NCBI GenBank assembly: GCA_001464455.1
Contig: LNEI01000015.1
Location: forward strand, 1-64,000
Length of the DNA stretch: 64,000 nucleotides
Source: Acidobacteria bacterium Ga0077534
GTDB lineage: Bacteria > Acidobacteriota > Blastocatellia > Pyrinomonadales > Pyrinomonadaceae
Reading direction: 5' to 3'
Part shown: positions 8,051 to 30,107 of the stretch, piece after piece
How the letters are laid out: each line of letters opens with the position of its first letter
Position numbering within the stretch: the first letter of the stretch is position 1
Position numbers and translations under genes: made by a program
The notes under the pieces: generated by a model
Database searches by the model: none
What the model was told of the DNA's origin: nothing
The model's input: only the letters and a program-made list of their open reading frames with translations

Positions 8051-8156
8051 CTGTAAGAAGGTAGATTAATTCCCGGTAAAAATCAATTAGTTCACGGTTT
8101 TAGCTCCGGCAACGGTTCCCGGAGTTTCGGTCTGCCCTACGGGGCTTCTCCTGGAC

Positions 8157-8512
8157 TGCTCCCGGAACCTCTGAAACTGCTCCCGGAACGTCTGGGATTG
8201 CTCCCGAAACCTCTGGGATTGCTCCCGAAACCTCTGGGAGTGCTCCCGGAACCTCTGGGAGTGCTCCCGGAACCTCTGGGAGGGCTCCCGGAACCTCTGG
8301 GAGGGCTCCCGGAACCTCTGGGAGGGCTCCCGGAACCTCTGGGAGGGCTCCGGAACCTCTGGGAGGGCTCCCGGAACCTCTGGGACTGCTCCCGGAACCT
8401 CTGGGAGTGCTCCCGGAACGTCTGGGAGGGCTCCCGGAACGTCTGGAACTGCTCCCGGAACGTCTGGAACTGCTCCCGGAACGTCTGGAACTGCTCCCGG
8501 AACGTCTGGAAC
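8157..8512. repeat. 21-bp tandem repeat, 17 copies
   Basis: Seventeen head-to-tail units with core CTCCCGGAACCTCTGGGAG plus two linker bases. Unit 10 (8346-8365) lacks one C and is 20 bp. Variation is patterned: GGAACG/CTGGAAC units cluster at the right end, CCGAAAC/GGGAT units at the left. Most units contain the inverted pair CTCCC/GGGAG, and each GGGAG also faces the next CTCCC, so two alternative hairpin registers exist. Open frames on both strands are artefacts of a 21-bp period; the single-base loss breaks the heptapeptide frame. Together with the hairpin cluster at 8558-8703 it fills the 734-bp gap 8051-8784. Confidence 0.9.
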
Positions 8513-8557
8513 TGCTCCAGTCCGGGGAGCGTCATGAAAAGTCTTGGGCGGATCGCA

Positions 8558-8784: not shown

Positions 8785-10872
8785 CTAAAAATCGAACTGA
8801 TCCACGTTCTCCTTATTAAAGATGAACGGCTTGCCGAGCCGCACTTCGTCGCCGACGACCTCGATCTCGCCCAGGCGGCCGGCCTTGACCGACTTATCGC
8901 CCGGCTTGAACGTGCCGTTCGCTAGCGAATTCGCGGTAAATACGGTCAGGAAGCCGAGATCGCCCGTGTTCCAGAGCACGATGCTGTCGATAATGCCGGC
9001 CTTGATGTACGGTTTGCACATGTTCGGGAGCGACAGGCCGGTGACCTTCACGTCGGAACGGTTCGCCTGCTTGACCGCCTCGGCGATGCCCGGAACTGCG
9101 GGAGCGGCGATGCCCATGACGACCTTGACGTTCGGATAAACCTTGAGGACGTTCTGCGTTTCCTGAAACGCACGGTCGCGGTCGCCGTCGCTGGGCTGGA
9201 TCGTGACGAGTTTCATCTCAGGATACTTCGATTCGAGCCGCTGTTTGATGTGCTTGATCCACTCGTTCTGGTTCGCGGCACTTAAGGATGCGGTGATGAT
9301 CGCGAATTCGCCCTTCCCGCCCATTATCCTCGCCGTCTCGTCCATCAAAGTCTCGCCGATCCCCTGCGGCGTCGCCTGATTGATAAGGAAATCGCGAGCA
9401 TCCTTCTCGGCGTCGGCGTCCCAGGTCACGACCTTGATGCCCTTTTCCTTGGCTTTGCGAAGAACGGTAGAAATTCCTTCCTTATTCTCGACGCTGACCG
9501 CGATCACATCGACGCCGCGAGTGATCCATGCCTCGACGACCTCGTTCTGCTTCGCCGGATCGAGGTCGGTCGGGCCGTCCCAGAGGAGTTCGGCCCCGAG
9601 TTCCTTCGCCGCTTCCTCGGCGCCCTTGCGGCAGCTGATAAAATACGGGTCACCCTTTGCCTTTGGCATCATCGCGATGACGCTTTTCTTGCCGGGGGCG
9701 GGCGAATTCGTGTTAGCCGCCGCCGTCGGGGCCGCACTTCCGCGTTCTTCCTTGATCGAGCGGACCAGCAGCCAATTGCTGCCCGCAACAATAAGCGCCG
9801 CCGCGACGATAACGCCGCTTAGGACTCCAACTTGCCAATTTTTCACTTCAAATTCCTCCTCTGAAGCCGCTTTCGGCTTCGCAACACTAGCCCTCGACAG
9901 ACGGTCGAGCAAAATTGTGACGACGAGCAAAACGCCGGTCAGGATCCCGGCGAGCTCCGCCGGCTGCCCGCTGAGCCGCAGACCGTTCTGCAGAATAACT
10001 ATCGCGAACAGCCCGAGAACCGTCCCCAAAACAGTACCGCGTCCACCAAATATCGACGCCCCGCCGAGCACGACGGCGGTAATTGCCGTCAATTCGTAAC
10101 CCGTTCCCGCGTCCGACTTCGCCTGCCCGAGATGTGCGACATAAATAACCGCCGCCAGCGCCGCCGTCAGGCCCGACAGGCAGTAAACGAAGTTCAGTCG
10201 CCGCCGAACTTTGATGCCGGCGTAACGCGAACCCTCCTGCGAGAAGCCCACCGCGTAGAAACTTCGCCCAAACGCCGTCCGGTGCAGCCACCACCACACC
10301 GCAATGATCGCCGGCACGAAGATAAATAACTGCGTCGGAATGAACCCGAAAACATAGCCCTGGCCCAGCGATAGAAACGTCGGCGAAAAGCCGGAATAGT
10401 TCTCGATCCCGCGCGTCAAACCTTCCGCGATGCCGCGAAACAGCGAGAATGTTCCAAGCGTCACGATCAGAGGCGGAGCTTTTAGCTTCGTGATCATCGC
10501 GGCATTCAGAGCCCCGCCCGCTAATCCGACGAACAGCGTTATCGCAATTGCCACCGGCATCGAAACACCGCCGTCCCGCCACAGCGATCCCATCACCACC
10601 GCCGACAAACCCATCATCGAACCAACCGAAAGGTCGATGCCGCCCGTAATAATGATCGGCGTCATCACCAGCGCGAGCAGCCCGATCTCCACCGCCAGCC
10701 GCGTGATCTCAAATGCGTTGCCCGAAGTCGCAAAATTGCTGCCCGTGACCGAAAAGATGAGGCATTCCGCGATCAGGACGATCAGCAGGATCCATTCGTT
10801 ATTCGGAAAAAGCCGCTCGCGAAGCGACTGTTCCGTACTAAGCGGCCGCTCCGGCGATATTACTTCTTCCAT
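8785..10872 (-). CDS. Fusion of RhaQ-like ABC permease and RhaS-like rhamnose-binding protein
   Basis: The 695-aa protein has two halves. Residues 20-330 are an RbsC/RhaQ-type inner-membrane permease (IIITGGIDLSVGSMMGL near 74-90; GGASIFGGRGT near 270-280). An extra membrane helix (about 346-370) and an Ala/Pro/Asn linker (371-395) follow. Residues 396-695 are a type I sugar-binding protein whose end (VLWNTGDLGFLTVF, LGKPFIFNKENVDQFDF) resembles RhaS, the rhamnose-binding protein. The extra helix would place the binding domain, tethered, in the periplasm. The start overlaps the end of the RhaP-like permease gene by 35 bp. It is one uninterrupted frame, so a sequencing-error fusion is unlikely. 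Substrate assignment rests on homology and operon context. Confidence 0.85.
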   Translation of the reverse strand: MEEVISPERPLSTEQSLRERLFPNNEWILLIVLIAECLIFSVTGSNFATSGNAFEITRLAVEIGLLALVMTPIIITGGIDLSVGSMMGLSAVVMGSLWRDGGVSMPVAIAITLFVGLAGGALNAAMITKLKAPPLIVTLGTFSLFRGIAEGLTRGIENYSGFSPTFLSLGQGYVFGFIPTQLFIFVPAIIAVWWWLHRTAFGRSFYAVGFSQEGSRYAGIKVRRRLNFVYCLSGLTAALAAVIYVAHLGQAKSDAGTGYELTAITAVVLGGASIFGGRGTVLGTVLGLFAIVILQNGLRLSGQPAELAGILTGVLLVVTILLDRLSRASVAKPKAASEEEFEVKNWQVGVLSGVIVAAALIVAGSNWLLVRSIKEERGSAAPTAAANTNSPAPGKKSVIAMMPKAKGDPYFISCRKGAEEAAKELGAELLWDGPTDLDPAKQNEVVEAWITRGVDVIAVSVENKEGISTVLRKAKEKGIKVVTWDADAEKDARDFLINQATPQGIGETLMDETARIMGGKGEFAIITASLSAANQNEWIKHIKQRLESKYPEMKLVTIQPSDGDRDRAFQETQNVLKVYPNVKVVMGIAAPAVPGIAEAVKQANRSDVKVTGLSLPNMCKPYIKAGIIDSIVLWNTGDLGFLTVFTANSLANGTFKPGDKSVKAGRLGEIEVVGDEVRLGKPFIFNKENVDQFDF

Positions 10873-11806
10873 TTTTCTCCAGACGCCCGAGTGCTACGTC
10901 GGACACGAGGGCGATCAAGATGATCGCGCCCTGAATTGCTTTCTCCCAGAAGGGATTTATCCCCAAAAACGTGAGCGCGGTCCCGATCGTGCCTAACAAA
11001 GCGACGCCGATCAGCGTTCCGACCAACGTTCCGCGTCCGCCGGTGATCGCGGCTCCGCCGACGACGACCGCCGCGATTGCCTTTAATTCCAAACCGACGC
11101 CCGAGTTCCCCGGGATCTCGGAAAACCTCACCGCGTTCATGAGCGCCGCGATCCCCGTTAGGGCGCCCATCAAAGCGAATACGCTCAGAACGACCGTCGG
11201 CCCGCTGATACCCGCGAGCCTCGCCGCCTCGGCATCAGAGCCGACGGCGTAGATCTTTCGCCCGGCCACAAGGTTTCGCAGCGTCCAGGCAAAGGCGACA
11301 AATATAGTGAGTGTGATGGCAACGATCGTAAGTTCGCCGCCGCTCTGCGACAACCCGAACCACTGAAAGTTCTCAGGCAGGTTCTGCACCCACGCACCTT
11401 CCGTCAGCCACCTCAAGGCGTCCCGCCACAGCACGAGCATTGCCAAGGTAACAATGATCGACGGCAAACGCAGCCAGCCGACGAGAACACCGTTCAGCGA
11501 CCCCATCATGGCGCCGACGAGGAAGATCGAGAGAAAAAGAACCGGCATGGGCATCCCGGTCTTTGCGAGAAAACCCGCCGCAATACTGCAAACCGCGAAC
11601 TGCGAACCCACGGAAATATCGATCTCGCCGACCAGAATGACCATCGTCATGCCAACCGCGATCAAGAGCGTCGGCGCATTATTGATCAACAGATCGCGAA
11701 GATTCCCCGCACTAAAGAAAGACGGCGCGACGATGGCGAGGACGATCAGTATCGCCACAAACGCCCCCGCAGCCGAGATCTCTCTTTTGTATCTGCTGAA
11801 GTTCAT
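10838..11806 (-). CDS. Sugar ABC transporter permease, RhaP/RbsC type
   Basis: The 322-aa polytopic membrane protein has the family motifs VGEIDISVGSQFAV and VVGGAAITGGRGT. The start is set at ATG 11806 (MNFSRYKREIS). The frame stays open to 12001, but that upstream stretch translates an intergenic repeat and overlaps the preceding gene, so it is rejected. It forms the second permease of the rhamnose-type importer with the ATPase upstream and the permease-binding-protein fusion downstream, whose start it overlaps. Confidence 0.87.
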   Translation of the reverse strand: MNFSRYKREISAAGAFVAILIVLAIVAPSFFSAGNLRDLLINNAPTLLIAVGMTMVILVGEIDISVGSQFAVCSIAAGFLAKTGMPMPVLFLSIFLVGAMMGSLNGVLVGWLRLPSIIVTLAMLVLWRDALRWLTEGAWVQNLPENFQWFGLSQSGGELTIVAITLTIFVAFAWTLRNLVAGRKIYAVGSDAEAARLAGISGPTVVLSVFALMGALTGIAALMNAVRFSEIPGNSGVGLELKAIAAVVVGGAAITGGRGTLVGTLIGVALLGTIGTALTFLGINPFWEKAIQGAIILIALVSDVALGRLEKNGRSNIAGAAA

Positions 11807-11945: not shown

Positions 11946-13442
11946 TCAATGCCCCAACGCGACCGCGAGGATCTTATCCTGCGTCGCCTCGCTCCTATCA
12001 AAAACCTTTGCTATCGTCCCGCCCCGCATGACAGCGATCCTGTCGCTCATCCCAAGTATTTCCGGCAACTCCGACGAGATCATCAGGATCGCAACGCCCT
12101 GTTCCGCGATCTCCATCATCAACGAATGGATCTCAGATTTTGCTCCGACATCGATACCCTGCGTGGGTTCATCGAGGATCAAAACCGACGGTTTCGTCAT
12201 CAGCCAGCGGCTCAGGGCAACCTTCTGCTGGTTCCCGCCGGAAAGCGTCGAGACGGCGTTGTGTATGGTCGGCGTTTTCACCCCGAGCCGCCGCGTATAC
12301 TCGGCAGCGATCTCCTTCTCTTTTCCGAAATTCATGCCCTTGAAGCCAGAAAGCTTCTTCAGCGACGCAAGCGTGATATTCGCACTGATGGGGAAATCGA
12401 GTACAACGCCGTGTTTTCGCCGGTCTTCAGGCAAATAGGCGATGCCAACATCGATCGCCTCGGACGGATGCCCGAAATGCATCGGTTTGCCGCGAAGGAG
12501 GATTTCCCCCGCGTCGGATTCAACAATGCCAAAGATCGCTTTTGCCAGCTCGGTTCGCCCTGCGCCTATCAAACCAGCGACGCCGACGATCTCGCCGGCT
12601 CGAACAGAAAGATTGATATTCTTGATCCCGACTGCTCGCGAACCCAGATTTTTCAGCTCAAATATGGTTTCACCGATCTCGACTACGCGCTTCGGAAAAA
12701 CAGCGGAAAGCTCGCGGCCGACCATTAATTTGATCAGCTCCTCGCTGCTGACTTCAGCCATTACTTTAGTTCCGATAGTCAGGCCGTCTCGCAAAACCGT
12801 GACGCGGTCAGCAATTACGGGCAATTCTTCGAGGCGGTGCGAGATGTATATCATCCCAACGCCTTGCGAGCGAAGTTCGCGGATAACGCGAAACAAATTC
12901 TGCGTATCTTCCTCAGAAAGCGACGCCGTCGGCTCATCAAATATAAGGATTTTGGCGTTTGCTCCAAGTGCCCGAGCGATCTCAACGAGTTGCTGTTGCG
13001 GCATCGAGAGCTCGCCAGCGGGCGTTTCCGGATCGATCTTCGCCCCGACGCGGTCGAGCAGTTCCTTCGCTGCACGGCGGCGTTCATTCCAGTTCACAAA
13101 GCCGAAAAAGCCTTTGCGTTCGAGACCGATAGCTATGTTCTCGGCGACAGTAAGTTCCGGGAAAAGAGCAGGTTGCTGATAAATTGCCGCGATGCCAAGC
13201 GACTTGGAGATAGCCGGTGAATTCTCGCGGACCAGATCGCCATTTACCGTCAATTCCCCGCTATCGGGCGTTACCGCTCCCGTTACGATCTTAATAAAAG
13301 TCGACTTCCCGGCACCATTTTCACCCACCAAAGCGTGAACTTCACCGCCACGAAGCTCAAACGACGCGTCACGAAGCGCCTGAACGCCCGCATATGATTT
13401 CGTCACTCGCTCGGCCGTAAGTAGTGGTGTCTGTCCCGTCAT
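11946..13442 (-). CDS. Sugar ABC transporter ATP-binding protein, RhaT/RbsA type
   Basis: The 498-aa cytoplasmic ATPase has two ABC domains in one chain. The first carries Walker A GENGAGKST (40-48), signature LSMPQQQ and Walker B ILIFDEPTAS. The second has the degenerate P-loop GLIGAGRTE usual for RbsA/XylG proteins, signature LSGGNQQKV and VLILDEPTQGID. It energises the two permeases encoded downstream. The position after lutC in the rhamnose operon supports rhamnose as substrate. Confidence 0.93.
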   Translation of the reverse strand: MTGQTPLLTAERVTKSYAGVQALRDASFELRGGEVHALVGENGAGKSTFIKIVTGAVTPDSGELTVNGDLVRENSPAISKSLGIAAIYQQPALFPELTVAENIAIGLERKGFFGFVNWNERRRAAKELLDRVGAKIDPETPAGELSMPQQQLVEIARALGANAKILIFDEPTASLSEEDTQNLFRVIRELRSQGVGMIYISHRLEELPVIADRVTVLRDGLTIGTKVMAEVSSEELIKLMVGRELSAVFPKRVVEIGETIFELKNLGSRAVGIKNINLSVRAGEIVGVAGLIGAGRTELAKAIFGIVESDAGEILLRGKPMHFGHPSEAIDVGIAYLPEDRRKHGVVLDFPISANITLASLKKLSGFKGMNFGKEKEIAAEYTRRLGVKTPTIHNAVSTLSGGNQQKVALSRWLMTKPSVLILDEPTQGIDVGAKSEIHSLMMEIAEQGVAILMISSELPEILGMSDRIAVMRGGTIAKVFDRSEATQDKILAVALGH

Positions 13443-13490: not shown

Positions 13491-14162
13491 TCACCGATCA
13501 TTTAACACGATAATGTGCAATTCGCCGGGTCCGTGAACCCCAATTGCCAATGTCAATTCGATATCTGAGGTCCGCGACGCTCCGGTAATGAAGGTCATCG
13601 CGTGTCCCAAATTCGCTTGCGTCAGTTCTAGTATCTCACCGAGCGTCTGACGTATCTTGCTCGCCTCCAGCAAACAAAGGTGAACAGGCGGAACGAGCGA
13701 GATCAGACGATGATCCTCGTTTTCGGCCTCAAGCACAAGCGTTCCGGTCTCAGCGATCGCCCATTGGGCGGATGTTATTCCGAGGTCGGAATCAAATAGA
13801 AAATCTATCGACGCATTTCGCGTAAACTCAACCGTTTCAATAATTTCTGTGACCTCAGAAACAAGCTGAGAGTTCGAGACTGCGATCTTTTTTGCACCCG
13901 TTCGGTCAATAACCGATTCGATCAAAACGGCCGCTTCCCGCTCATCAGAGGCAATCTCGATATGAATACCGAGCATCTCGGCACTAGCACAGAAATTATC
14001 CAAAAGCTTCCGGACATCAGTCACGTTCTCAACCGGAAGTGCTTGATTTGCAACGACTTCAAAATGTCTATGCTCACCGTGAACCGCGTCGAACGGCCTA
14101 CTCGTCGCGAGATGTCGGCGAATCGATCCAATTATGTCTTCGCGAGCGGTCGTCATAACCAT
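13491..14162 (-). CDS. lutC: Lactate utilization protein C (LUD domain)
   Basis: The 223-aa protein is of the LutC/YkgG type: N-terminal REDIIGSIRRHLA, a central LUD fold (GAKKIAVSNS), WAIAETGTLVLEAENEDHRLISLVPPVH and the C-terminal TGASRTSDIE...GVHGPGELHI. It is a subunit of the LutABC complex that oxidises L-lactate to pyruvate. ATG 14162 is the first ATG downstream of an inverted repeat; ATG 14156 is an equally good start. No Shine-Dalgarno is seen. It follows lutB by 70 bp. Confidence 0.88.
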   Translation of the reverse strand: MVMTTAREDIIGSIRRHLATSRPFDAVHGEHRHFEVVANQALPVENVTDVRKLLDNFCASAEMLGIHIEIASDEREAAVLIESVIDRTGAKKIAVSNSQLVSEVTEIIETVEFTRNASIDFLFDSDLGITSAQWAIAETGTLVLEAENEDHRLISLVPPVHLCLLEASKIRQTLGEILELTQANLGHAMTFITGASRTSDIELTLAIGVHGPGELHIIVLNDR

Positions 14163-14169
14163 TTTTGCG

Positions 14170-14250
14170 GAAGCCCACACGAAGTAAGGGCTCTGTTCAC
14201 GTCAATCGAGTTTAAACCTGTCAAGAGAGCCCTTACTTCGTGCGGGCTTC
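14170..14250. repeat. Long inverted repeat overlapping the lutB stop codon
   Basis: Arms of 25 bp at 14170-14194 and 14226-14250 match with one mismatch. The right arm encodes the final residues EARTK and the stop codon of LutB. The left arm ends 8 nt before the first ATG of lutC. It is therefore a repeat that supplies coding sequence and could fold in the lutBC mRNA. Confidence 0.85.
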
Positions 14251-15711
14251 TGCAATGCTTCCATCCTTCCACATCTCACGAAAAGATCTCGGAGCGACCG
14301 CCGGAGCATCGCGCCAAGCAGTCCAGGCACCAAGCGGCGGCAGCAGTTTTGCGATCAGTCCGCTCGCTTTTCCGATCTTGCCATCGCGGACTATCAGTTT
14401 TTGCATCAGCCTGGCGGCTTTGATACCAAGGCCGTATGAGAACTGTCCTGACCATGCTTTGCCATACATCTTAAAAGCCAGACTCTCGGCAAATCTTCGT
14501 TTTCGCTCTGGATTGTCCGGTGAACCTCCCGCTGTTCCATCCGTAATTTCTGCTCGCAGATGCAGCAATAGTTCCGGAATATCGATCTTGACCGGGCAAA
14601 CTTCTTTGCACGCTCCGCATAGGCTCGACGCATATGGAAGCTGCTTTGCTTTCGAAATTCCGATCAACTGCGGAGTGATCACCGCACCGATCGGCCCCGG
14701 GTATACCGAACCATACGCGTGACCGCCGACCTGTTGGTAGACCGGACAGGCGTTCAGGCACGCTCCGCAGCGGATGCAGGCGAGGCTCTGCCGCGTGACC
14801 GGATGACTGAGCATTCGAGAGCGGCCGTTGTCCATCAGGACGATGTGAACTTCCTCGGGCCCCGCATCGTCGGCGTTTTTCTTGGTTCCGGTGATCAACG
14901 ATTGGTACGCGGTTAATCGCTGGCCTGTCCCCGAACGCGGCAAAAGCTTAAGAAAAACGTCGAGATCGGCGAATTTGGGGATCACTTTTTCGATCCCCAT
15001 GATCGCGATATGCGTTTTCGTCAGGCTCGTCGTTAATCGAATATTGCCTTCGTTTTCAAGGATCAAGATCGTGCCGGTCTCGGCAACTCCGAAATTCACG
15101 CCGCTTATCCCAACCTCAGCCTCTGCGAACCGCTCGCGAAGTATCCGCCGCGTGGTCTTTGTCAGCACATCGACGTTGTCGGTCTTCTCGATCCCGACCT
15201 TTTCGACAAAAATATCCGCGATCTGTTCCTTCGTCTTATGTATCGCAGGAACCACGATGTGCGAAGGCGTTTCGCCCGCTAGCTGGATGATCCACTCGCC
15301 TAGGTCTGTCTCGACCGGCTCGATGCCCGCTTTTTCGAGAGCCTCGTTGAGATGGATCTCTTCGCCGGCCATGCTCTTGGCCTTGACCACCATCTTGGCG
15401 TCGCTTTGTTTTACCAGGTCGATCACGATCTGGCACGCCTCTTTCCCATCGCGTGCCCAGTGGATCTTGGCCCCGGCATTCTCCGCGCTCTCAACGAATT
15501 TCAACAAGTATTCGTCGAGGTGTAGCAGCGTTTCTTCCTTTATCGCCCGAGCTTTTTCACGGAGGCCTTCCCAATCGTCAACGGACGCGATCGCATTTTT
15601 TCGACGGCCAACAAAATTATCAGCCAAATTCCGCAAAGCACCGTGCAACACGGGATCGCGTAGAGCGGCCCGGGCATTCTGGTCAAAAGTTTCTGCGGTC
15701 AACTGCTGCAT
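14233..15711 (-). CDS. lutB: Lactate utilization iron-sulfur protein B
   Basis: The 492-aa protein has an N-terminal LUD domain (VGISGVNFGVAETGTILILENEGN) and a ferredoxin-like region with CIRCGACLNACPVY and CGACKEVCP for two 4Fe-4S clusters, plus a C-terminal extension. It is the electron-transferring subunit of L-lactate oxidation. The start is set at ATG 15711 (MQQLTAETFDQ). The open frame up to 15828 reads through a repeat and into lutA, so it is not used. The last five residues are encoded by an inverted-repeat arm. Confidence 0.9.
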   Translation of the reverse strand: MQQLTAETFDQNARAALRDPVLHGALRNLADNFVGRRKNAIASVDDWEGLREKARAIKEETLLHLDEYLLKFVESAENAGAKIHWARDGKEACQIVIDLVKQSDAKMVVKAKSMAGEEIHLNEALEKAGIEPVETDLGEWIIQLAGETPSHIVVPAIHKTKEQIADIFVEKVGIEKTDNVDVLTKTTRRILRERFAEAEVGISGVNFGVAETGTILILENEGNIRLTTSLTKTHIAIMGIEKVIPKFADLDVFLKLLPRSGTGQRLTAYQSLITGTKKNADDAGPEEVHIVLMDNGRSRMLSHPVTRQSLACIRCGACLNACPVYQQVGGHAYGSVYPGPIGAVITPQLIGISKAKQLPYASSLCGACKEVCPVKIDIPELLLHLRAEITDGTAGGSPDNPERKRRFAESLAFKMYGKAWSGQFSYGLGIKAARLMQKLIVRDGKIGKASGLIAKLLPPLGAWTAWRDAPAVAPRSFREMWKDGSIAEARTK

Positions 15712-15726
15712 ATTTCGGGTCGGTAC

Positions 15727-15790
15727 CACCTTCGGTAGTGGGTGGGGTTTTGACTCGCGACTATAAGAACTCCACCCGCTACCGCAGGTG
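15727..15790. repeat. Inverted repeat between lutA and lutB
   Basis: Arms of 19 bp, CACCTTCGGTAGTGGGTGG at 15727-15745 and its near complement at 15772-15790 (two mismatches), with a 26-nt loop. It ends 16 bp before the lutB start and leaves no visible Shine-Dalgarno there. Confidence 0.8.
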
Positions 15791-15805
15791 TTACTGACAT
15801 TATTC

Positions 15806-16525
15806 TTACGAAGCCAAAACCTCTGCAAGGTGCTTTGTCTTCACCTTCGACTCGATCCGCGACAGCCGTCCATTGATCTGCATTAGACAGCTTGCGTCGC
15901 AGGCGACGACTGTATCGGCTCCCGACTTTTCTATCATTTCGATCTTGTTATCGAGCATTCCGGCTGAAATTTCAGGGTATTTTACTGAGAACGTTCCGCC
16001 GAAACCGCAGCAGACATCGGCGTTCTCCATCTCGGCAAACTCAGCCCCTTTCACGTTTTTCAAAAGCTTCCGCGGCTCGTTCCTAATACCGAGGTCACGC
16101 AAACCGTGACACGCGTCGTGCCAGGTGATCTTTTCGTTGGATGCCGCCCCGACATCTTCTACTTTCAAAACATTCACCAAAAAGCTGCCGAATTCGTGAG
16201 TCTTCGCCGCGATTTTCTCCGCTCGTTGTCGCCATTCCGGCTCGTCGGGAAACAACTCGTGAAAATGTTTGACCATCGCCGTACACGAACCCGAAGGGCT
16301 GACGATCGCTTCTGCATCTGAACTTTCAAAGATCTCGATGAACCGCTTTGCAAACTTGCTCGCCTCTTTGCGATAGCCGGTGTTAAATGCCGGCTGGCCG
16401 CAACAGGTCTGGCGTTCATCAAAAACAACCTCACAACCAGCACGCCGCAAAACCTCAACCGTAGCGACGCCGACGTTCGGGCAAAGCTGGTCGACGAGAC
16501 ATGTAACAAAAAGCGAGACTTTCAC
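15806..16525 (-). CDS. lutA: Lactate utilization protein A (CCG-domain protein)
   Basis: The 239-aa protein has two cysteine-rich CCG domains: CCGQPAFNTGYRKEA near 42-56 and CCGFGGTFSVKYPEIS near 172-187. This is the LutA/GlpC-type fold that binds an iron-sulfur centre and passes electrons toward the quinone pool. It is the first gene of lutABC, 69 bp after rhaB. In a rhamnose operon, LutABC would consume the lactate made from lactaldehyde. Confidence 0.92.
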   Translation of the reverse strand: MKVSLFVTCLVDQLCPNVGVATVEVLRRAGCEVVFDERQTCCGQPAFNTGYRKEASKFAKRFIEIFESSDAEAIVSPSGSCTAMVKHFHELFPDEPEWRQRAEKIAAKTHEFGSFLVNVLKVEDVGAASNEKITWHDACHGLRDLGIRNEPRKLLKNVKGAEFAEMENADVCCGFGGTFSVKYPEISAGMLDNKIEMIEKSGADTVVACDASCLMQINGRLSRIESKVKTKHLAEVLAS

Positions 16526-16594: not shown

Positions 16595-18106
16595 TCACTT
16601 ATCACTTCCCACTGAGTCCGAAGCTGATAAACCAACAAATTTATTTTCGATTGTCCTATATTTGCTGCCTGCTTCGTCTATCGCGACAGATCGCTGCGGC
16701 TCGTACCCAATAAGCTCAAAACTCTTACTAACGTGTTTTCTGGCATCCGCGATCGATGAAAATCGCCCTGCCGTTACCGCCTGAACGAGCACATTTCCGA
16801 CAACGGTCGCCTCGGTCAGTCCTGCCTGAACGGTGATGCCGCTGGCGTTCGCTGTCATCTGATTCAAATAAGAATTTCGTCCGCCGCCGCCTAAGATTTG
16901 AATGCTCGCAAGGTTCTTTCCAGTCAGAACTTTGATCGAGCGAAGCACCGATGCGTATCGAAATGCGAGCGAATCGAATATTATCTTTGAGATCACTGCC
17001 GGGCTGTTTTCAAATTGCTGTCCCGTTTCCGCGAGCTGCTCCGCGATCGCATCGAGCATGCTCGGCGGATTCAAGAATCTCGGATCGTCGGGAAAAATGA
17101 ACGCTTTAAACTCTTTCTCTGCTGATACTTCCGCAAGGAGCGTATCGTATTCTACATCGATACCGGCGGCTTTCCACTCGCGGCGGCACGATTCGAGCAG
17201 CCACAGACCCATTACATTTTTGAGGAAACGAACAGTGCCATAGACCCCGCCTTCGTTCGTGAAATTTTGCGCGGCGACATCTTCGTTTATCAGAGCTTCG
17301 TCGAGCTCTACGCCGATCAGCGACCAAGTGCCGGAGGAAATATACGCCGAATCTTTATCGAGCGGTGCTCCGGCGATAGCACTGCCGGTGTCATGCGTTG
17401 CTGGTGCAACGACATGAACACCGTCGAGGCCAAGTTCCGACGCGATCTCTGGCTTCAACTGCCCCAGATCAGTTCCCGCAGGAACGATCTCCTGCAAAAT
17501 TCCCGCTGGAAGATCAAGCCGCTCAAGCAGATCGCGATCCCACTCACCGGTCGCAGCGTTCAGAAACTGCGTGGTCGTCGCGTTAGTGTATTCCGCCGCT
17601 TTTGTTCCTGTCAGGAAATAATGCAGCAGGTCTGGCAGCAGCAGAAGGTCCGCCGCCTCACCGCTTCGCTTTTCTGAATCTAACTGGTAAAGCGTGTTGA
17701 AATTCTGAAATTGGATTCCCGTTTTTTCAAAGATCTCGGAACGCGGCACGCGGACAAAAACCTGCTCCATGGCCTCCTTTGTACGATCGTCACGATAGCA
17801 AACCGGTTCGGCAATGAGTTCACCGCTTGCATCGAGCAGGCCATAATCGACAGCCCAGCTATCGATGCCGAGGCTCTTGATCTTGCGTCCAAGTTCGCGT
17901 GCACGCTCGCCAGCAGTTTTCAATCCAAACTTGATCTCAGCAAAAATGTGGTTCAGATCCCATCGAAGATTCCCGTCCTTTTCCGTCGGCGGATACTGGA
18001 ATCTATGGATCTCCTCAAGCAAAAACTCACCCGTATCGACACCAGCCAAAAAAACTCTACCGCTGCCCGCACCGAGATCTACCGCAATAAAAAGTGGACC
18101 AGCCAT
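16595..18106 (-). CDS. rhaB: L-rhamnulokinase
   Basis: The 503-aa FGGY kinase starts with the nucleotide-phosphate strand AVDLGAGSGR. It carries SWAVDYGLLD, a rhamnulokinase hallmark, and the expected catalytic Asp in ATHDTGSAIAGAP, followed by SGTWSLIGVE. It phosphorylates L-rhamnulose to rhamnulose 1-phosphate. It sits between rhaI and lutA; the 69-bp gap to rhaI holds an AGCTAATAGCT-type palindrome. Confidence 0.93.
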   Translation of the reverse strand: MAGPLFIAVDLGAGSGRVFLAGVDTGEFLLEEIHRFQYPPTEKDGNLRWDLNHIFAEIKFGLKTAGERARELGRKIKSLGIDSWAVDYGLLDASGELIAEPVCYRDDRTKEAMEQVFVRVPRSEIFEKTGIQFQNFNTLYQLDSEKRSGEAADLLLLPDLLHYFLTGTKAAEYTNATTTQFLNAATGEWDRDLLERLDLPAGILQEIVPAGTDLGQLKPEIASELGLDGVHVVAPATHDTGSAIAGAPLDKDSAYISSGTWSLIGVELDEALINEDVAAQNFTNEGGVYGTVRFLKNVMGLWLLESCRREWKAAGIDVEYDTLLAEVSAEKEFKAFIFPDDPRFLNPPSMLDAIAEQLAETGQQFENSPAVISKIIFDSLAFRYASVLRSIKVLTGKNLASIQILGGGGRNSYLNQMTANASGITVQAGLTEATVVGNVLVQAVTAGRFSSIADARKHVSKSFELIGYEPQRSVAIDEAGSKYRTIENKFVGLSASDSVGSDK

Positions 18107-18175: not shown

Positions 18176-19474
18176 CTAGACAATTCCCGCTGAGATACCG
18201 ATCTGTGCCGGACGCTCTTTTGCTTTTTGCGTGCGATAGCCGCTTGCCCGATAGACCGCGACCGGGTCGATAGCACCGCCGCTTCGCTCTCGTGCGGCGG
18301 CGAGGATCGGCGAAACATCGGTCGTAAATGCTTCTTTTAAAGTGCCAAGTGCCGTGATCGCATCGCCAGCTTTTTGAGCTTCGCGAAGTTTCGAACGATC
18401 GACCATATGGGCCTGGACGAACGCCCGCGAGATCTCGATCGAACTCGTTACTAATGACTCGATCGGATCAGTTACGTTGTGCGACTGGTCGAGCATGTAG
18501 CACGGATCAAAGCCTTCGACCTCGCTCAATTCAGCATCGACAAGCTCGTTAAAGATAAGGAAAAGCTGAAATGGCTTTACCGAACCTGCGTCGAGATCGT
18601 CGTCGCCGTATTTGCTATCGTTAAAGTGAAAACCGCCAAGTTTTTTGAACTGGATCAGCCGCGAAACGATCTGCTCTATGTTCACATTTGGTGCGTGATG
18701 GCCAAGATCAACGAGACACGACGCCTTCGGCCCAAGTTCGGTCGCACAGATGTAGCTTGTTCCCCAATCGTTTATGACGGAAGAATAGAACGCAGGTTCG
18801 AAGAATTTGTGCTCGATGAAAAGCTTCCAGTCGTCAGGTACGGCCGCGTAGATCTCACGCATCGATTCGAGATACCGACCCAACGCGAGCCGGAAGTTCG
18901 ATTGCCCAGCAAAATTGCTGCCATCGCCAACCCAAACGGTCAACGCTTTGGAACCGATCTTTTTGCCGATCTCGATGCACTCGATATTGTGCTCGACCGC
19001 TTGTTTTCTCGTCGCGGCGTCTTCATGGGAAAGGCTGCCGTACTTGTAAGACTGTTTCTGCCCAAGCTGATCCTGAAACGTATTCGAATTCATCGCGTCG
19101 AATTCGAGTCCGTGTTGTTTTGCTGCAGCGATAAGCTGATCGGTATGCTCAGGTTTATCCCACGGAATGTGTAGGGAGACGGCTGGTGTCGTGCGAACTA
19201 GCTTATTAATGGTCGAGCAGTCTTCGAGCTTTTCAAAAACACCGCGTGGCTCACCCTGCCCGGGAAAACGAGCAAAACGCGTGCCGCCGGTGCCGACTCC
19301 CCAAGAAGGGACGGCGACCTTTAGCCCGCGAGCTTTTTCGATTAGCGATTCTACATCGCCGCCGTGACGAGCAAGCTTTTTGCCGAGATACTCGAGGTCT
19401 TCGGCAAGCCAAGCACTCTTCGCCCTGTTTTGCTCAGCGATAAAATCCTGTTCGATCTCAAAATTTGCCGCCAT
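18176..19474 (-). CDS. rhaI: L-rhamnose isomerase, RhaI type
   Basis: The 432-aa TIM-barrel isomerase is of the kind found in Pseudomonas and Rhizobium, not the E. coli RhaA type. Family signatures are VAVPSWGVGTGGTRFARFPG, SLHIPWDKP, CLVDLGHHAPN and the metal-ligand segment GGFHFNDSKYGDDDLDAG. It converts L-rhamnose to L-rhamnulose. ATG 19474 has GGAGA five bases upstream, while the longer open frame (to 19546) runs through an intergenic hairpin; hence this start. It is the second gene of the rhamnose operon. Confidence 0.93.
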   Translation of the reverse strand: MAANFEIEQDFIAEQNRAKSAWLAEDLEYLGKKLARHGGDVESLIEKARGLKVAVPSWGVGTGGTRFARFPGQGEPRGVFEKLEDCSTINKLVRTTPAVSLHIPWDKPEHTDQLIAAAKQHGLEFDAMNSNTFQDQLGQKQSYKYGSLSHEDAATRKQAVEHNIECIEIGKKIGSKALTVWVGDGSNFAGQSNFRLALGRYLESMREIYAAVPDDWKLFIEHKFFEPAFYSSVINDWGTSYICATELGPKASCLVDLGHHAPNVNIEQIVSRLIQFKKLGGFHFNDSKYGDDDLDAGSVKPFQLFLIFNELVDAELSEVEGFDPCYMLDQSHNVTDPIESLVTSSIEISRAFVQAHMVDRSKLREAQKAGDAITALGTLKEAFTTDVSPILAAARERSGGAIDPVAVYRASGYRTQKAKERPAQIGISAGIV

Positions 19475-19490
19475 ATTTTCTCCGCTGGAA

Positions 19491-19510
19491 GGTGAGCATC
19501 TCTGCTCACC
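19491..19510. repeat. Perfect hairpin between rhaD and rhaI
   Basis: GGTGAGCA and TGCTCACC flank the loop TCTC, a perfect 8-bp stem. It lies 16 bp before the rhaI start and could modulate expression of downstream genes relative to rhaD. A further GGAGGG/CCCTCC hairpin follows at about 19530-19561. Confidence 0.65.
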
Positions 19511-19563
19511 CAAACCGTTTTGCTGTATGGAGGGATGAGCGAGCAAGATGCCCGCCCTCCAGT

Positions 19564-21765
<2,202 letters not shown>

Positions 21766-29108: not shown

Positions 29109-30107
29109 ATGAGAAGACGAATTTCCATCTTCTGTTCGTTCTTAACGGCTGTGGCCGTTCTGACTTCATGCAGCGGCACCGCGACCACACCTACGAATGG
29201 CGGTTCGAACAACGCCGCACCGGCGAGTAAGGAACTAAAGCTCGCCTTCGTCACCAACAATGCTTCTGATTACTGGACCATCGCTCGAAAGGGCGTCGAA
29301 AAGGCCGATGGCGAACTCGCGGATGTAAAGGTCGAGTTCAAACTCCCCGGCGAGGGCACGGCTGCCGAGCAAAAGCGCATTATCGACGACCTGACCTCAA
29401 CCGGCGTCCAGGGCATCGCGATCAGCCCGGTCGACCCTGACAATCAGACTCAGCTTATCAATGACACCGCGAAAAAGACCTTGGTCATCACGCAGGACAG
29501 CGACGCACCGTCGAGCGACCGTGCTCTCTACATCGGGACAGACAACGTCGCCGCGGGACGCCAGGCCGGCGAACTCGTAAAGGAAGCTTTGCCGAACGGC
29601 GGTAAGATCATGGTCTTTGTCGGCAAGAGCGACGCCCGCAACGCTGCTGAGCGTTATCAGGGCCTGAAACAGGCGCTCGAAGGCTCAAAGGTCGAGATCA
29701 TCGACATCCGCACCGACGATACCGATCGAGCCCGCGCTAAAACCAACGCTGCCGATACCCTTGTCAAATACCCCGACATCGCCGGCATGGTCGGCCTTTG
29801 GAGCTACAACGGCCCCGCGATATACAACGCCGTCAAAGAGGGCGGAAAGCTCGACAGCGTCAAGATCGTTTGCTTTGACGAAGAAGACGAAACGCTGGCG
29901 GGTGTGAAGGAAGGCGGCATCTTCGCCACAGTCGTCCAACAGCCGTACGAATTCGGTTACCAATCCGTAATTCTTATGTCAAAGATCCTAAAGGGCGACA
30001 AATCGGTCATCCCGGCCAACAAACAGATCAACGTCCCGACCCTCGTCGTCAAAAAAGACACGGTCGAAGAGTTCACCAAGAAGATCAACGGCCTGCGAGG
30101 ACGATAA
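29109..30107 (+). CDS. Sugar ABC transporter substrate-binding lipoprotein (RbsB type)
   Basis: The 332-aa lipoprotein has basic MRRR, a hydrophobic stretch and lipobox LTSC (Cys21). A low-complexity Asn/Gly/Pro linker precedes a type I periplasmic binding domain (LAFVTNNASDYWTIARKGVEKA, GIAISPVDPDNQ, ALYIGTDNVAAGRQAGE). GGAG precedes ATG. No permease or ATPase is adjacent, so it may serve the RhaT-like importer encoded on the other side of the GH28 operon, or a transporter elsewhere. It is divergent from GH28 and probably co-regulated. The ligand is unknown; ribose/galactose-type sugars are typical of the family. Confidence 0.88.
   Translation: MRRRISIFCSFLTAVAVLTSCSGTATTPTNGGSNNAAPASKELKLAFVTNNASDYWTIARKGVEKADGELADVKVEFKLPGEGTAAEQKRIIDDLTSTGVQGIAISPVDPDNQTQLINDTAKKTLVITQDSDAPSSDRALYIGTDNVAAGRQAGELVKEALPNGGKIMVFVGKSDARNAAERYQGLKQALEGSKVEIIDIRTDDTDRARAKTNAADTLVKYPDIAGMVGLWSYNGPAIYNAVKEGGKLDSVKIVCFDEEDETLAGVKEGGIFATVVQQPYEFGYQSVILMSKILKGDKSVIPANKQINVPTLVVKKDTVEEFTKKINGLRGR

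Follow-up and report, generated by a model that had tools for sequence, protein, structure and literature searches.

ABC importers for L-rhamnose, binding domains fused to transporters, and internal translation starts are each already known. Binding proteins are usually produced in excess. What determines the proportion of binding protein to transporter, and why certain importers keep the binding domain tethered, has mostly been studied in OpuA and GlnPQ. In the rhamnose importer of Rhizobium, RhaSTPQ, the binding protein RhaS is a separate protein (PMC3870299). GlnPQ has a linker of 19 aa and is a homodimer (PMC8025302), so that a tethered set is present on each half. In phage endolysins with in-frame internal starts, one frame with two ribosome sites gives rise to the full-length protein and to its C-terminal part (PMC9430671). 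In Clostridia, an excess of binding protein is set by internal transcription terminators (PMC9045158).

We analysed a stretch of 64,000 nucleotides from Acidobacteria bacterium Ga0077534 (contig LNEI01000015.1; hereafter the window) that contains a gene, here designated rhaQS, comparable with each of these systems. As in RhaSTPQ, a member of CUT2, an ATPase, two permeases and a RhaS-type binding protein are encoded beside rhamnose catabolic genes, and the RhaS model is matched over its full length; unlike in RhaSTPQ, RhaS is fused to one of the permeases and has an apparent second start. As in OpuA and GlnPQ, the binding domain is attached to the C-terminus of the permease via a short flexible linker (∼23 aa in rhaQS), whereas the permease belongs to another family, only one of two different permeases bears a domain, a single one, and the connection involves an extra helix and an internal start. 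With the endolysins, rhaQS shares the arrangement of one frame with two ribosome sites (the second product being predicted here), but the proteins are unrelated and the short product of rhaQS would be a membrane-anchored receptor. As with the clostridial terminators, more binding protein than transporter would be obtained from one operon, but by a translational device inside a gene instead of a transcriptional one between genes. The closest relatives of both domains, encoded in the same order, are the split rhaQ and rhaS of some Vicinamibacteria (L083, L108, L145, L147), which differ from rhaQS in being two genes, with rhaS encoding a lipoprotein. No published report of the combination, or of a fusion in the RbsC/RhaQ branch, was found in a search of open-access papers. 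From the comparative data presented below, we estimate at roughly three in four the probability that rhaQS is a two-product gene, encoding a tethered RhaQ-RhaS (74 kDa) and, in addition, a separate membrane-anchored RhaS (38 kDa).

Architecture of the fused protein

The rhaQS frame is uninterrupted over its 695 codons, counted from ATG (Table 1), and covalently joins a binding domain to a permease. Pfam matched BPD_transp_2 at residues 53-319 (7.5e-43) and Peripla_BP_4 at residues 399-653 (7.1e-63), domains of the RbsC/RbsB branch and not of the OpuA or GlnPQ families. For the binding domain, the top NCBIfam model was TIGR02637 (RhaS), matched over the full model length with 258 bits (E 9e-77), which is below the equivalog cut-off of 342 bits. 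The AlphaFold prediction, made with 56 fused homologues, consisted of about ten helices up to residue 330, disorder at 333-344, one 34-residue helix at 345-378, disorder at 377-393, and a binding-protein fold at 398-695 (mean pLDDT 83). The initial annotation of a RhaQ-like permease, an extra helix, a linker and a RhaS-like domain in one frame is supported. All matches listed in the fold search came from the binding domain. The closest solved structure was the rhamnose-binding protein of Kribbella (4kvf; 36% identity, Z 39.6, rmsd 1.6, 300 residues), whose Z is shared by apo LsrB (1tm2) and 5bq3; the permease sequence had no match in the PDB at E 0.001.

Table 1. Features of the rhaQS locus (window positions; all on the minus strand).
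Feature	Position	Strand	Basis or remark
rhaQS, RhaQ-type permease, additional TM helix and RhaS-type binding domain in one frame	8785..10872	-	695 aa, ∼74 kDa; Pfam, NCBIfam, AlphaFold, Lys/Arg count
RbsC/RhaQ-type permease domain, residues 21-330, about ten TM helices	9883..10812	-	Pfam BPD_transp_2, AlphaFold, positive-inside count
Variable cytoplasmic linker 1, residues 331-342; its end encodes the Shine-Dalgarno as Glu-Glu	9847..9882	-	
Internal Shine-Dalgarno AGAGGAGGA, 7 nt from its end to the internal start	9854..9862	-	GAGGA at -12..-8 in homologues
Internal start codon GTG (Val343)	9844..9846	-	GTG or ATG in 54/54 homologues with the helix
Conserved anchor module, TM helix 11, residues 343-373	9754..9846	-	Column conservation
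Flexible periplasmic linker 2, Ala/Pro/Thr/Ser-rich, residues 374-396	9685..9753	-	Low pLDDT, low conservation
RhaS-type binding domain, residues 397-695	8788..9684	-	TIGR02637; structural match 4kvf
Predicted second product, signal-anchored RhaS, 353 aa, ∼38 kDa	8785..9846	-	Inferred
RhaP-type separate partner permease	10838..11806	-	Pfam, NCBIfam; ORF runs to 12001, ATG at 11806 likelier
RhaT-type ATPase, two ABC domains	11946..13442	-	Pfam, NCBIfam
lutC, lutB, lutA, lactate oxidation, downstream of rhamnose-derived lactaldehyde	13491..16525	-	Pfam, NCBIfam
Rhamnulokinase (RhaB/RhaK type)	16595..18106	-	TIGR02627, 484.6 bits, below cut-off (527.95)
L-rhamnose isomerase RhaI	18176..19546	-	TIGR02629, 689 bits, above cut-off
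Bifunctional rhamnulose-1-phosphate aldolase/dehydrogenase	19564..21765	-	NF006189 (1056 bits) and TIGR02632 (978 bits), both above cut-off

The predicted inner loops of the permease contain 11 Lys/Arg residues, versus two in the outer loops. This count places the C-terminus of the permease inside, so that helix 11 carries the binding domain to the periplasm, the location already proposed in the initial annotation. Third-position GC showed no break across the junction between the two domains. The possibility that a frameshift or an assembly error had fused two genes, named at the outset as what would refute the fusion, can be dismissed: separate genes elsewhere do share the rhaQ-rhaS order, but the same fused frame was present in dozens of independent assemblies (52-85% identity) and in a cultured isolate.

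Helix 11 stands where the split RhaS of Vicinamibacteria has its (lipoprotein) signal sequence, and in the window protein the residues just ahead of Asn366 form a weak small-x-small motif (A-G-S). It could thus be thought of as the internal signal peptide of a polyprotein, from which signal peptidase frees RhaS from RhaQ. This is highly improbable. The residue preceding the invariant Asn366 is Thr in 13/44 sequences, and Thr ahead of a cleavage site is poor for signal peptidase I; furthermore, both the hydrophobic stretch and a conserved LVRS extend beyond the Asn366 site, and AlphaFold gives a single helix here.

The rhamnose operon and its surroundings

rhaQS is the last gene of an operon for L-rhamnose import and catabolism. 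The presence in one operon of a BPD_transp_2 permease and of an ATPase having two ABC domains, together with the linked catabolic genes, is what is expected of CUT2 systems of the RhaSTPQ type; the binding protein is a separate polypeptide only in prediction, via the internal start, as its frame is fused. Further along from the operon are genes for a rhamnogalacturonase-type GH28, a galactokinase and GalT, which is consistent with growth on rhamnogalacturonan. The rhamnose context assigned in the initial annotation is borne out by the operon's RhaI and RhaD equivalogs. These, the rhamnogalacturonase-type gene close by, and a rhamnose-binding protein as the top structural match make L-rhamnose the likely substrate of the importer, likely rather than proven because both RhaS and the rhamnulokinase score under their equivalog cut-offs.

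The genome has no RhaS-type gene apart from the fusion. Two other CUT2 binding proteins were found, one 25% identical over most of the RhaS domain, the other 29% over part of it. The former, an RbsB-type lipoprotein with an LTSC lipobox (29109-30107), adjoins a GH2 gene and has neither permease nor ATPase genes alongside. It had been suspected to compete with the tethered domain for the same ATPase. Binding proteins dock on permeases, however, not on ATPases, and the low identity and the GH2 neighbour likewise speak against competition, as does another CUT2 ATPase-permease pair in the genome for which no binding protein is listed. This pair (contig C16, L120), adjoining a GalT-type gene, may be served by the 29109 lipoprotein.

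Between the rhaQS stop codon and the gene for a LacI-type regulator, a 21-bp unit is repeated 17.5 times in tandem (window positions 8153-8518; 93% matches).

A conserved, probable internal start at Val343

In the window, the codon for Val343 is preceded by a Shine-Dalgarno sequence of its own (AGAGGAGGA-ATTTGAA-GTG). When the anchor module was searched for with its first residue left free, 54 distinct loci were obtained, of which 44 had GTG and ten ATG at this position, and none another Val codon (48/48 GTG or ATG in an earlier, smaller set). Elsewhere in anchor-bearing rhaQS genes, GTG accounts for ∼38% of the Val codons. Only GTG or ATG remained when one sequence was taken per cluster (19 clusters at 72% identity), and, in the manner of start codons, the two replace each other from clade to clade. 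Third-base identity at Val343 was 1.00; across 32 Val-rich columns, the median was 0.37 and the second-highest value 0.52.

GAGGA was present at -12..-8 of the internal start in 75-89% of 44 homologues. Glu339, which encodes the core of this Shine-Dalgarno, had the strongest GAG bias among 28 Glu columns (88% vs a median of 47%). The mean duplex energy with the anti-Shine-Dalgarno was -7.4 at the internal start versus -2.9 at other in-frame ATG/GTG codons. Synonymous resampling of the site still gave a mean of -5.4, so that the Glu-Glu codons could account for some of the signal, though not for all of it. A simple start score ranked the Val343 site first among the in-frame starts in 31/44 genes and among the top two in 35/44, and the local mRNA was less structured there in 42/44 genes (-7.9 vs -13.7 kcal/mol). 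Thus, the site combines a conserved codon with its own ribosome site, stronger than those of other in-frame codons. A Shine-Dalgarno was lacking in 5/9 ATG members and in 0/35 GTG members (cut -2.5; a pattern read after the fact), that is, the members without it all use the stronger ATG.

That the gene yields the full-length fusion only, as a plain tethered importer, with GTG and GAGGA being a relic of an old rhaS start or slowing the ribosome while the last helix is inserted, appears unlikely against these data. Several lineages manage without the internal start, a pause ahead of a helix is conceivable, and the Glu-Glu codons explain a share of the Shine-Dalgarno. A relic, however, should have decayed, whereas the third base is fixed in 100% of cases at a residue type for which it is otherwise nearly random (0.37); and a pause would neither require NTG at a start-like spacing nor explain the exchange of GTG for ATG. 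The low local mRNA structure is typical of starts as well. The two-product reading accommodates these features, and it implies that the annotation of a single fused protein can conceal a second conserved product.

Conservation of the protein sets in abruptly at Val343, the start codon. The anchor (residues 343-373; consensus [VM][KR]NSQVAxLSAxILAAALIVAGSNWLLVRSL) has 3.3-3.6 bits per column, level with the domains, as opposed to 1.0-1.4 for both flanking linkers, and was not found in proteins other than rhaQS in the 40 genomes searched. Since anchor and start are the best conserved part between the two domains, one could suppose that the internal product alone matters, and that the fusion is a tolerated by-product of ribosomes running past rhaQ. 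We consider this scarcely credible: linker 1 occurs in 16 different lengths among the homologues, yet is always in frame and stop-free, and for this reason the fusion itself also appears to be selected. Moreover, the module or the start is missing or altered in the Acidobacteriaceae clade and in L060/L092, L069/L081 and L072, which are nested among bearers and have kept the fusion; in L065, likewise fused, GTG is retained without a Shine-Dalgarno. The internal start is hence dispensable in the former lineages and, because the start-less lineages keep the fused frame, the fusion is functional by itself. Judged from these comparisons, both the fused frame and the internal product appear to be selected.

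A model for two products from one gene

Translation from the first start would produce the RhaQ permease, whose C-terminus recrosses the membrane and holds RhaS on a periplasmic tether of ∼23 residues. Together with RhaP and RhaT, this RhaQS protein would assemble into an importer in which each transporter has a single captive binding domain, and the captive domain would secure delivery of the sugar, presumably L-rhamnose, at the channel. Initiation at Val343 would yield a separate RhaS, with helix 11 serving as an uncleaved signal anchor; also delivering the sugar, this second product would increase the number of binding proteins per transporter on the inner membrane. The initial annotation had capture depend on the tethered domain alone, a view that is not supported in that form, as the conserved internal start should also yield a separate membrane-anchored RhaS. 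Extended to the phylum, the model probably describes an importer in which one gene supplies a permease with a captive domain plus extra anchored copies of that domain, in which translation alone would set the ratio of separate to captive domains, and in which loss of the start in several lineages would have left captive domains only.

Distribution and origin of the fusion

Fused rhaQS genes occur in many soil Acidobacteriota. They were found at over 50 distinct loci across the phylum, in Blastocatellia, Vicinamibacteria, Bryobacteraceae and Acidobacteriaceae, and Pyrinomonas methylaliphatogenes K22, an isolate, is among the bearers. Of the 62 loci obtained by scanning named genomes, nearly all those that span the junction were fused. 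Among 396 Acidobacteriota species surveyed, the fusion was intact in 20 and interrupted in two, where either the frame or the contig is broken, and the genes were separate in one. Wherever flanks were present, the gene order was rhaT-rhaP-rhaQS. The notion that such a fusion is unusual in the RbsC/RhaQ branch holds for the open-access papers searched, in which we found no description, but not for the rhamnose system of the Acidobacteriota, where it is the usual form.

In Phycisphaerales and Armatimonadota, rhaQ and rhaS are separate and mostly in the same order as in rhaQS. The split Vicinamibacteria genes represent three lineages, whose separate rhaS encodes a lipobox; at L083 and L108 the two genes overlap, with ATGA comprising both the start of rhaS and the stop of rhaQ. 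All fused members group together in the binding-domain tree (99/99), with the split Vicinamibacteria just outside, so that a single origin of the fusion is likely on phylogenetic grounds. The permease tree argued neither for nor against this placement of the split lineages (p-AU 0.316). One phylum thus offers related natural forms (split lipoprotein, fusion with and without the internal start) for a direct comparison of tethered and separate capture.

Several candidate split genes were rejected: the frames of L076/L107/L117 and L085/L160 are broken elsewhere in the gene, and L075, L077, L079, L080, L084 and L109 lie at contig ends. Likewise, further permease-binding-protein fusions suggested by the length of the open frame (G049:C114, G144, G208, G215, G265, G219) were two same-frame genes with one stop between them. 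The only other fusion of this kind is a divergent one from a single genome (L017:1474-3489, G057; 32% identical), in which an ATG with a Shine-Dalgarno occurs right before the extra helix. This may be a case of convergence, albeit a single one.

A single mutation would suffice to fuse the CUT2 permease and binding-protein genes at L118:3446-5386, L111-L114, L116, L136 and L141, which share a frame and have only one stop codon between them. Four contigs labelled Gemmatimonadetes (L044, L049, L053, L078) carry a fusion of the Acidobacteriota type, two of which (L044, L049) are nested in the trees; transfer or mis-binning may account for them. Three Vicinamibacteria loci (L161, L163, L165) encode proteins that share 42-50% identity with the RhaS domain and lack a visible signal peptide; they are possibly cytoplasmic sensors or the products of mis-started genes.
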